64,000 nt of DNA from Bacillus sp. FJAT-45037 (GTDB lineage: Bacteria; Bacillota; Bacilli; Bacillales; Bacillaceae_D): positions 2,306,267-2,370,266 of the forward strand of contig NZ_KZ454938.1 in assembly GCF_002797325.1 (NCBI RefSeq), read 5' to 3'. Both the position numbers and the translations under genes were made by a program. Positions 6,657 to 9,646 of the stretch are shown one piece after another (position 1 is the stretch's first letter; each line of letters opens with the position of its first letter). The notes under the pieces were generated by a model. It saw only the letters and a list, made by a program, of their open reading frames with translations, searched no databases and was not told the DNA's origin.

Positions 6657-6834
6657 CCCCCTCTAATAAGTGTGTACTTTCTATACGAGAACATTATAAA
6701 TAAAGATTCAAAAACTACAAAAGAATGTAGCATTGTCAAAAAAAATTATAAAATCCTCTATCATTATAGTATACATTGATCGTAAACTGGAGAAAAAATT
6801 GTAAATAAAGAGTAATTAATCGCGGATGTGTTGA
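6657..6834. other. Intergenic region upstream of hflK, probable hflKC promoter
   Basis: This AT-rich stretch contains no gene. On the minus strand it has two TATAAT-like hexamers, each without a convincing -35. No protein or RNA was recognised here. The sRNA candidate lies immediately beyond it. Confidence 0.4.
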
Positions 6835-6881
6835 AGGAAAAAAGAAGAAAGACGAAAGCTAAGGGGAGCTTTCGTCCTTCT
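6835..6881 (-). terminator. Strong terminator of the putative Pho-controlled transcript
   Basis: On the minus strand, AGAAGGACGAAAGCT pairs over 15 bp (one G-U) with AGCTTTCGTCTTTCT around a CCCCTT loop. A TTCTTTTTT tract follows. It lies about 165 bp beyond the phoR stop and upstream of hflK. Confidence 0.85.
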
Positions 6882-6965
6882 AAGGGGATGTAAATCAACG
6901 TGCACAAGCTTAACTAAGTGGGATGAGCACTTAAAAGGCTTGCTTGGCATTGATGAAACCGTTCA
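6840..6965 (-). ncRNA. Putative PhoP-activated small RNA downstream of phoR
   Basis: A self-contained transcription unit of about 125 nt is inferred from three visible parts. These are a four-repeat Pho box (6987-7025), a TACACT -10 (6972-6977) placed so that the box covers -22 to -60, and a strong intrinsic terminator (6835-6881). No reading frame in the interval has a ribosome-binding site. The C-rich string TCCCCTTAG occurs twice, once single-stranded and once in the terminator loop; C-rich loops are typical of Gram-positive sRNAs that pair with Shine-Dalgarno sequences. Expression and targets are inference. The alternative is that this is the 3' untranslated end of the phoPR mRNA with its terminator. 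Confidence 0.45.
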
Positions 6966-6971
6966 GTCTTT

Positions 6972-7025
6972 AGTGTAGACGATCTACATTAAGGAGAGAT
7001 GAAAAGAATGTAAAAGTATTGTAAA
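6972..7025 (-). promoter_or_regulatory. Pho box (four 11-bp-spaced repeats) with -10 TACACT
   Basis: Read on the minus strand, the hexamers TTTACA, TTTACA, TTCATC and TTAATG are each separated by exactly 5 bp. This matches the B. subtilis PhoP~P site, TT(A/T/C)ACA repeats every 11 bp. Two repeats are perfect and two match at 4 of 6 positions. TACACT follows at the distance expected of a PhoP-activated promoter that lacks a sigma-A -35. An inverted repeat TGTAGA-CGA-TCTACA overlaps the -10. Confidence 0.6.
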
Positions 7026-7043: not shown

Positions 7044-8822
7044 TTAGCCCCACTCTTTGTTTCGAGTGCGTAAAAATGCAATCGTAAACACCGTCCCTTG
7101 TCCAGGCTTACTTTCCACGGCTATTTTCCCGTGATGAGCTTCCACAAGATGCTTGACGATAGCTAAGCCTAACCCTGTTCCTCCCGAATTGCGACTACGG
7201 GCGCGATCGACTCGATAAAACCGTTCGAATATTCTTGGTAACTCCGATTGCTCAATTCCAATCCCGTTATCTTGAACCATTAATCGAATATACTTTTCAT
7301 CGCCCGTCACGTGAACGTCAATTTTTCCTTCTTGAGGGGTGTAATTAATCGCATTGCCAATTAAATTAATGACAACTTGCTTTAAACGTTCTTTATCACC
7401 ATCCATCACTAACGGGCTTTCACAAGTTAGATGAAGAACGATATTTTTTTCTTCGGCTTTATGTCGAAGCAGCTCGACACCTTCTTCGACTACTGTCGCA
7501 AAATCCGCGCTTCCCCAATTCAAGCTGAAATAATGCTGTTCTAGCTTAGATAGTTCCAATAAGTCTTGAATTAAACTTTGTAATCTTTCACTTTCATTAT
7601 AAATAATTTTTAGGAATTTCTCTGAGTATGTCGGGTCATGCATAGCTCCATCAAGTAGTGTCTCTGAAAAACCTCTTATCGAAGTAATTGGTGTTTTTAA
7701 TTCATGGGAGACATTGGCGACGAAATCTTTACGAACTTGCTCTAGCTTTTTCAACTCAGTGATATCATGCAAAACAAGAGCAATTCCCTTCATTCTTCCA
7801 TGTTCACTTAAAATAGGGGCTGCATGCACATCAAAGTGTTTCACATCAAGCCCTACTAAAAGTTGAATTTGTTCTTGATGTCTATTTTCCGTAATGAAAA
7901 TCGTCTGGACCACCTTCACCAGTTCTTTAGAAGGGAGCACTTCATGATACAACTGATTCATCCAAATATCGGCATTTGCTTCAAAAATATCATGACACAT
8001 TTGATTAATTAACGAAATATCGCCTCTGGGATTAATAAAAATCAAGCCACTCGCCATGTTATCAATTAAAGTTTCGAGGCGTTCTTGTTGAGCTTCATGA
8101 CGTTTAGTGATCTGTTCAAGATTGTATGCTAATACATTCATTGATCTTGTGAGTTTACCCACTTCATCTTGTTTCCCTTCAAATGTTCTCGCTTGAAAAT
8201 TCCCTTCCGCAAGTTCAATCGCGACTTCAGATGCATTCTCAATGGGTCGAATCATTTCATTAGCAATTCGATAAGTGATCGTTCCGATAACCGTAAAGGC
8301 AATGGTGAAGCTAATAAGAAGAATCCACCAAATCGTTTCATTTAATTTATTTATCGTTTTTGTTTCCATTCCAAGACGAAGGTAACCGGTCTCTCCGTTA
8401 CTAAGTTCATATGACACCGCATAATAGAGTAATTCTTGGTTGACCGTATCACTAACTCGTACCTCTGCTCTTTGATGTCCTTCTTTAACCGCTATAATCT
8501 CAGGACGATCGTTATGATTCTCTAATTGACTAGGATTATTGGTAGCAGATTCTCCAATCACCGTTCCGTCTTCTGCAATGATTGTTACTCTTGCATCCAA
8601 TCGTTCACTAACTTTTACAGCATACTGCTGAAGTTCTGATTGGCTGTCTTCAAAAGATCCAAGTGTTAAAGCTACAAGCTCTGCTTCTTTTTCAAGACGA
8701 TCGGTTAAGTGGTTCTCATAGATATTTCCATAAACCTGTCCGATCACAAGTCCGAGGCTAGCCATAACAAAAAGAGTCACACTTAATATGGCAAAAACAA
8801 GTCTAAACTTTAGCTTATGCAT
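7044..8822 (-). CDS. phoR: Phosphate-starvation sensor histidine kinase PhoR
   Basis: A 592-residue membrane kinase that phosphorylates PhoP when phosphate is limiting. Layout: transmembrane helix about 7-28, extracytoplasmic sensor about 30-165, second helix about 166-186, HAMP, PAS (around 250-350), HisKA with the phospho-acceptor His in NVSHELKTP (about residue 370), then the HATPase with N-box NLIGNAINYT, DNGIGIE and the GGTGLGLAI G-box. It overlaps the phoP stop by 8 bases and has no good ribosome-binding site of its own, so translation is probably coupled to phoP. The organisation matches B. subtilis. Confidence 0.95.
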   Translation of the reverse strand: MHKLKFRLVFAILSVTLFVMASLGLVIGQVYGNIYENHLTDRLEKEAELVALTLGSFEDSQSELQQYAVKVSERLDARVTIIAEDGTVIGESATNNPSQLENHNDRPEIIAVKEGHQRAEVRVSDTVNQELLYYAVSYELSNGETGYLRLGMETKTINKLNETIWWILLISFTIAFTVIGTITYRIANEMIRPIENASEVAIELAEGNFQARTFEGKQDEVGKLTRSMNVLAYNLEQITKRHEAQQERLETLIDNMASGLIFINPRGDISLINQMCHDIFEANADIWMNQLYHEVLPSKELVKVVQTIFITENRHQEQIQLLVGLDVKHFDVHAAPILSEHGRMKGIALVLHDITELKKLEQVRKDFVANVSHELKTPITSIRGFSETLLDGAMHDPTYSEKFLKIIYNESERLQSLIQDLLELSKLEQHYFSLNWGSADFATVVEEGVELLRHKAEEKNIVLHLTCESPLVMDGDKERLKQVVINLIGNAINYTPQEGKIDVHVTGDEKYIRLMVQDNGIGIEQSELPRIFERFYRVDRARSRNSGGTGLGLAIVKHLVEAHHGKIAVESKPGQGTVFTIAFLRTRNKEWG

Positions 8823-9546
8823 TGATATGCGGCTCTTCTAACTTGTAGCCTAAACCTCTAATGGTTTTAATGTAAATCGGCTTCTTAGTATTTGGTTCAA
8901 TTTTCTCTCTAAGATGACTAATATGGACATCAACAATTCGCGTATCCCCAACAAACTCATAATTCCAAACAGCATTTAGGAGTTGGTCTCTCGTTAATAC
9001 GCGACCTTTATGATTAGCCAAATAAAGGAATAATTCAAATTCCTTAGGCGTTAGGTCTAAAGTCTTTTTGCTTACTTGCACTTCATAATTATCTGGGTAT
9101 ATGTCTACATCTCCAATTGAGATGACACTTTCATGAGTTGGTTGTTCTTCTAATGTCGCGGTCGTCACTTCTGATACCTGTTGTGATCGCCTTAATATCG
9201 CTCTCACCCTAGCAACGACTTCTCTTGGGCTAAATGGTTTTGTCATATAATCGTCTGCTCCAAGCTCTAAACCTAGTACTTTATCAAATTCGTCATCTTT
9301 AGCAGTTAGCATTAAGATCGGCGTCATTTTTTTCAGCTGCCTTAGTTGCTTACAAACATCTAATCCGTCCATTTTCGGTAACATGAGGTCAAGCACTATT
9401 AAATCAAATGGTTCATTTTTAGCTAAGTTTAAACCTTCTTCGCCATCTGAGGCGACAGCTACTTCAAACCCTGACTGCTCTAAATTAAATTGTAATAATG
9501 TTGCAATAGACTCTTCATCATCAACTACTAAAATACGTTGTGCCAT
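8815..9546 (-). CDS. phoP: Phosphate response regulator PhoP
   Basis: An OmpR/PhoB-type regulator that controls the phosphate-starvation regulon. The N-terminal receiver has the acidic pair in VVDDEES, the phospho-acceptor Asp in LIVLDLMLP (about residue 53) and the conserved Lys in MTKPFSP. The C-terminal winged helix (about 145-240) has the recognition helix VDVHISHLREKI. The ATG at 9544-9546 is chosen because the in-frame GTG 15 bases upstream lies inside the ribosome-binding site GGAGGG. That gives 243 residues. The operon continues into phoR. Confidence 0.96.
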   Translation of the reverse strand: MAQRILVVDDEESIATLLQFNLEQSGFEVAVASDGEEGLNLAKNEPFDLIVLDLMLPKMDGLDVCKQLRQLKKMTPILMLTAKDDEFDKVLGLELGADDYMTKPFSPREVVARVRAILRRSQQVSEVTTATLEEQPTHESVISIGDVDIYPDNYEVQVSKKTLDLTPKEFELFLYLANHKGRVLTRDQLLNAVWNYEFVGDTRIVDVHISHLREKIEPNTKKPIYIKTIRGLGYKLEEPHINA

Positions 9547-9646
9547 TTTCTTACCCTCCACTCTCTACGTTCATGTAGAGTTAATCGTCCAAACGGCTCC
9601 CCTTACTTCAATCGAAACAAATTAGTACTCATCCCTTTTCAACCTT

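Follow-up and report, generated by a model that had tools for sequence, protein, structure and literature searches.

A putative PhoP-activated small RNA with C-rich segments, conserved behind phoR in Bacillus sp. FJAT-45037 and its relatives

The 64,000-nt stretch of Bacillus sp. FJAT-45037 DNA that was analysed (the window) carries phoP, phoR and hflK on its minus strand, and a predicted RNA gene lies between the last two. The features are listed below in window coordinates.

8815 to 9561, minus strand: phoP, OmpR-type response regulator, the predicted activator
7044 to 8822, minus strand: phoR, the PhoPR sensor kinase (NCBIfam PnpS above cut-off, phosphate-type kinase), upstream neighbour and putative co-transcript
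6987 to 7025, minus strand: Pho box of four direct repeats, TTTACA (7025-7020), TTTACA (7014-7009), TTCATC (7003-6998) and TTAATG (6992-6987), a predicted PhoP~P activation site
6972 to 6977, minus strand: -10 element TACACT, 9 bp past the last repeat
6840 to 6964, minus strand: predicted small RNA, type A, about 120-125 nt (covariance model, 95 bits in the window; fold)
6955 to 6964, minus strand: conserved 5' segment GAACGGUUUC, mostly unpaired
6894 to 6954, minus strand: hairpin 1, variable in sequence and conserved in structure (arm-swap test)
6927 to 6920, minus strand: C-rich loop of hairpin 1, CUCAUCCC
6880 to 6893, minus strand: unpaired linker UUACAUCCCCUUAG, of the C-rich segments the one with the highest conservation (conservation, target complementarity)
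6838 to 6881, minus strand: hairpin 2 and T-rich tail, an intrinsic terminator with a CCCCUU loop (covariation, fold)
6656 to 5700, minus strand: hflK, downstream neighbour

The four hexamers of the Pho box followed each other at exact 11-bp steps, as in the 11-nt repeat rule of Bacillus Pho promoters (PMC4415409). Two sequence marks of a Pho-regulon promoter were found at the locus, namely TTHACA-like hexamers repeated at 11-bp steps and a position of these repeats at about -60 to -22 ahead of a -10. The 5' end of the RNA (about 6964) was placed by the position of the -10 and by GAACGG, where conservation sets in. No -35 hexamer was recognisable at the promoter carrying TACACT (-10 at 6977-6972). 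The initial annotation had read the hexamers, their spacing and the -10 correctly to the letter and coordinate. Its placing of the box at the activation distance was borne out by the 9-bp gap and by the same spacing at the organism's own pstS-type gene.

The four-repeat pattern was matched once in the 64-kb window, against 0.01 expected, and this box was the sole exact match in the whole FJAT-45037 genome. With one mismatch allowed, the genome yielded four more sites, including the promoter of a pstS-type gene (PstS-type phosphate-binding lipoprotein) and a site at a secreted phosphoesterase gene, the domain calls for both being made on partial sequences. The pstS-type promoter showed the repeats, the same 9-bp gap and then TATACT. 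A second genome of the genus gave the same picture: its sole exact match was again the site behind phoR, and its sole one-mismatch match was a pstS-type gene. Because the same pattern retrieves the pstS-type and phosphoesterase genes, the box is tied to the Pho regulon without presupposing this. Among the homologues, the best four-repeat array ended 21-24 nt 5' of GAAC in 48 of 50, and each array, scored against 300 shuffles, beat nearly all of them. The -10 retained TAnnnT, with TATAAT in several homologues.

The predicted RNA folded at -41.1 kcal/mol (z = -7.4), and none of 200 shuffles was as good; for eight homologues, the own sequence among them, z ranged from -4.5 to -7.2. The sequence of hairpin 1 differed among genera and varied by insertions and deletions, and its pairing was nonetheless retained. 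Matching arms paired with a mean of -15.9 kcal/mol, compared with -7.4 kcal/mol for arms swapped between species and -8.4 kcal/mol (sd 0.5, best -10.1) for shuffled segments taken through the same procedure. The terminator has a 15-bp stem (6881-6867/6860-6846) with a T-rich tail; 99.2% of its cells were paired in the alignment, two-sided change was seen in 8 of 10 pairs, and slid controls were 23-56% paired. The stem and tail had been described in the initial annotation, which overlooked hairpin 1 and thus counted one hairpin where there are two. It had also noted that TCCCCTTAG occurs twice (6888-6880 and 6867-6859, minus strand), once in the terminator loop. This stands, and a third C-rich segment, CUCAUCCC, had been missed. 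The RNA therefore carries three such segments, the loop CUCAUCCC, the linker UUACAUCCCCUU and the loop CCCCUU, and they were conserved and mostly unpaired across homologues.

A DNA search of 100 relatives recovered the region spanning Pho box and terminator; three genomes of the same genus matched best, and it was also present in another family. A covariance model (R1), which contained no phoR sequence, was searched in 397 genomes of the order and gave 44 matches, one per genome. Of these, 41 were immediate neighbours of phoR on its 3' side and came from 19 genera and 6 families, as counted from the tables; the context was inspected in two batches (30 of 30 and 11 of 14 behind phoR). Three matches (G410, G298 and G150) were rejected as ordinary or chance terminators. 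Carriers named by the exact-pattern scan included Alkalihalophilus pseudofirmus OF4, A. marmarensis and Halalkalibacterium halodurans, together with Halalkalibacter, Alkalihalobacillus, Alkalicoccobacillus and Alteribacillus species. In A. pseudofirmus OF4 the predicted RNA occupies about 2940845-2940959 of NC_013791.2, minus strand. The RNA body was conserved over 116 model positions, its stems covaried, and the repeats, -10, RNA and terminator were kept as one unit behind phoR in the 41 genomes. The initial annotation had suggested a covariance search in relatives and would have counted poor conservation of the repeats against its reading. The search found the unit, repeats included, so the claim of an sRNA gene of about 125 nt beside its regulator genes largely holds at the level of sequence.

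In genus g7 (L279, L281 and L284), the Pho repeats, GAACGGTCTTAT, GAACGG and a terminator remained behind phoR and the C-rich parts were gone, an apparent decay of the sRNA.

Of the attributes of a trans-acting sRNA, the locus showed an own promoter (recognised by sequence), a non-coding transcript region, an intrinsic terminator and a conserved structure; a base-pairing target had a strong candidate in several genera and none in others. Taken together, the locus is very probably an RNA gene under PhoP control. The alternative that survives best, itself improbable, is that the hairpin is a mere terminator or 3' UTR of the phoPR mRNA, any stable fragment being a by-product. In most genomes phoR and the RNA have no hairpin-T-run between them, and the sRNA terminator should therefore be where phoPR transcripts stop; hairpin 2 probably ends the phoPR message as well, with read-through from phoPR into it. 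However, a terminator requires no Pho repeats, no -10 and no conserved unpaired C-rich segments. In addition, the sRNA unit of L014/L072 (G007) stands about 1.2 kb away from phoR, with another terminator-like hairpin in the intervening DNA, and still has its repeats, -10 and hairpins. The persistence of the intact unit at this distance indicates that it is more than the end of the phoPR mRNA. The insert itself is built of repeats (GATTGAAACGG..AGGTAGTGACTCCC) and contains masked stretches.

It is less probable still that the repeats form a PhoP site serving some other end (as an internal brake, a decoy or a control element for the downstream gene) and that the RNA is inert. PhoP sites may do more than start transcripts, and the variable downstream gene (hflK or polA) ties the conserved element to phoPR. 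This reading leaves unexplained the fixed activation distance to the -10, an architecture shared with the pstS-type gene, and also the conserved, covarying RNA body. Slightly less credible still is a role in cis, as leader or attenuator of hflKC or polA downstream. The RNA does precede these genes, and its C-rich segments are able to pair with GAGGGGGATG, the ribosome site of hflK. However, hflK and polA have promoter-like sequences of their own past the terminator, and the downstream gene changes among lineages while the RNA stays: the loci of relatives lie behind phoR and ahead of hflK, or of polA where hflKC is missing. A small protein or dual-function RNA is the least plausible, since the open frame starting at ATG 6950 (ATGCCAAGC...) in the own genome has no ribosome site, as the initial annotation had stated for all frames between promoter and terminator, runs through the terminator, keeps its start codon in 11 of 50 homologues (3 of the 50 have a start preceded by some ribosome site) and crosses the insertions and deletions of hairpin 1.

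The hflK leaders (window 6660-6725, minus strand; loci L002-L021) carry TGAAAC and, some 16 nt later, CGTA, in the manner of an ECF sigma-W promoter; the own genus has TGAATC in place of TGAAAC. A sigma-A-like -10 was also seen near 6773-6763. GAAACC in these leaders had been considered as a complement of the sRNA 5' end and was dropped, as it belongs to the -35 of the sigma-W-type promoter (TGAAAC-N16-CGTA).

An RNA gene under PhoP control would probably act as follows. Bound to the four repeats in the region from about -60 to -22, PhoP~P would drive a transcript of about 120 nt whose end is set by its own intrinsic terminator. The three C-rich segments would be kept single-stranded by hairpin 1 and the terminator, and they may pair with G-rich Shine-Dalgarno regions and block translation, as conservation and the known sRNAs suggest. 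Masking of Shine-Dalgarno sequences by unpaired C-rich segments is the mode of RoxS/RsaE, FsrA and IsrR (PMC4409812, PMC9410917). A PhoP~P-activated, trans-acting sRNA of the Pho regulon, whose C-rich segments cover Shine-Dalgarno sites, is thus a likely reading of the locus.

Several known RNAs resemble the predicted one. RoxS/RsaE of Bacillus and Staphylococcus likewise has about 100-120 nt, C-rich Shine-Dalgarno-pairing segments and an intrinsic terminator (PMC4409812, PMC5419742). However, the promoter here carries Pho repeats, and place and sequence differ; RF01820 (RsaE/RoxS) had no match in the FJAT-45037 genome at E<=10. IsrR of Staphylococcus, which is Fur-controlled, and FsrA of Bacillus also follow the scheme of a starvation regulator producing a C-rich sRNA (with three regions in IsrR) that acts on ribosome sites and saves the nutrient in short supply (PMC9410917). 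Their nutrient is iron, in contrast to the Pho box and the position beside phoPR seen here. The 3' hairpins of staphylococcal RNAIII also bear C-rich segments beside a terminator, and a second model (R2) weakly cross-matched the RNAIII 3' end; its matches outside the order were RNAIII or chance terminators. RNAIII is about 500 nt long, belongs to the agr locus and is under other control, so the likeness is one of motif only, and RF00503 (RNAIII) had no match in the window. A passage in one account gives sgrS of E. coli as an sRNA gene under a phosphate response regulator, PhoB (PMC4415409), as proposed here. The RNA, the organism and the targets are unrelated. The sgrS gene is not known to be encoded beside its phosphate regulator.

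Ribosome sites complementary to the linker were screened in ten genomes. In the own genus, the screen pointed to a gene whose product has 540 aa, two Na_Pi_cotrans stretches and PhoU domains. The ribosome site AAGGGGATGTAA of this gene is complementary to the linker UUACAUCCCCUU over 12 nt without a mismatch, and over 11 nt in two relatives. Two genomes of the genus had the pattern AAGGGGATGTAR nowhere but in this ribosome site and in the sRNA gene; the FJAT-45037 genome had three further sites, one within another ribosome site. At L389 (G000:C1:1430796-1430807) in the own genome, the AAGGGGATGTAA complement was found in the ribosome site of another protein. Whole-RNA duplex energies were uninformative as a target score, since the hairpin arms find pairing partners everywhere. 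When paired bases were masked outright, the best helix of the own genome was broken up and the target came 9th of 57; an accessibility-weighted score was used instead. By this score the Na/Pi start reached -17.5 in the own genome, against a background of -7.4 (sd 2.6), and beat 56 of 56 starts. It ranked first in 13 of 34 genomes, with the 56 gene starts of the FJAT-45037 window serving as background for all of them.

In other genera, the Na/Pi ribosome site GAAGGGATGAG is complementary to the loop CUCAUCCCUUC, and 9-14 perfect nucleotides pair in the majority of genomes with CAUCCC retained in hairpin 1. Many Na/Pi leaders have a second AGGGGA-type site 20-30 nt upstream, which could take the linker. 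Pairing was no better, or hardly better, than background in several type A lineages (G004, G007, G010, G015, G019, G021, G022, G024, G028, G064 and G109). The Shine-Dalgarno pairing proposed in the initial annotation is thus favoured by conservation and by the Na/Pi candidate and is not matched by better pairing in several lineages. Genus g7, with its seemingly degenerate RNA, has retained the ribosome site GAAGGGATGAG, and the Na/Pi ribosome site was often unchanged where the C-rich loop of hairpin 1 was lost. Its conservation is therefore not due to the RNA alone. The mRNA of the Na/Pi-cotransporter-PhoU protein (YqeW/YjbB type) is the best predicted target, and we give it about an even chance of being a true one, since the scores differ in method. 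Phosphate would be saved if a low-affinity transporter or a phosphate exporter were shut off during starvation. In enteric bacteria the related YjbB is a phosphate exporter (PMC11389368), so repressing the Na/Pi gene under starvation may stop a phosphate leak.

Two further observations concern possible targets and their leaders. In three genomes (L143, L152 and L163), the linker is complementary to AAGGGGATG, the ribosome site of an SR1P-like small protein (MGTIICQxCNKTIxxFEGEKV), which may be a further target. Most of the Na/Pi leaders L217-L268 and L299-L324 carry a 0A (Spo0A) box, TGTCGAA, some 25-50 nt ahead of the start, and sporulation control of this phosphate transporter through the box is possible.

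Most of the inspected genomes without type A had another conserved RNA behind phoR, after TTTACA-type repeats. This type B consists of GAAAACCCCUUCAUCCAAGGAGCC followed by a terminator and is shorter than type A; the candidate transcript would be 65-80 nt long, with its 5' end at GAAAACCCCUUCAUCC, just 3' of phoR. A model for it (R3), searched in the 397 genomes, gave at least about 150 matches at E <= about 1e-9, in at least 24 families as counted from the table. All 49 strong loci inspected lay behind phoR with repeats, and matches above about E=1e-7 were for the most part noise, being terminators away from phoR. Type B paired with the Na/Pi gene over 5-9 perfect nucleotides, not clearly better than with the type A targets. 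At L372, L373 and L377 (family f62), near position 1500, an intergenic ACATGAAAACCCTTACATGAATAGAG with a terminator resembled type B away from phoR.

Searches of Rfam 15 at gathering and permissive thresholds returned only chance matches for the type A locus; nine type B loci had no Rfam match. The literature search, which most subscription journals lay outside, found no description of either RNA, and PhoP was absent from the text of a review of B. subtilis RNAs. Type B may appear as an unnamed segment in B. subtilis transcript catalogues. For these two reasons, the scope of the search and the possible catalogue entry, a strict claim of discovery is not proven. We regard the RNA as a new family of a known kind, and neither type is in Rfam 15.

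Their shared position, promoter and motif suggest common ancestry. We tentatively propose, as an idea that may well be wrong, that both descend from one ancestral Pho sRNA locked 3' of phoR over much of the order, and that the C-rich segments and their ribosome-site targets, notably that of the Na/Pi-cotransporter-PhoU gene, changed together. PhoP would then have an RNA arm that represses genes, beside its direct activation, and closes a phosphate leak at starvation. Nutrient-sparing sRNAs are known for iron, namely RyhB, FsrA and IsrR. If the proposal is true, the RNAs behind phoR would be the phosphate counterpart in dozens of Gram-positive families, and their physical link to phoPR would give a model two-component system a post-transcriptional arm. 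It would offer a way for PhoP~P to repress genes that lack a PhoP site, and it makes a testable claim on phosphate efflux at starvation. If type B occurs in laboratory Bacillus species, a standard host would be directly usable for testing.
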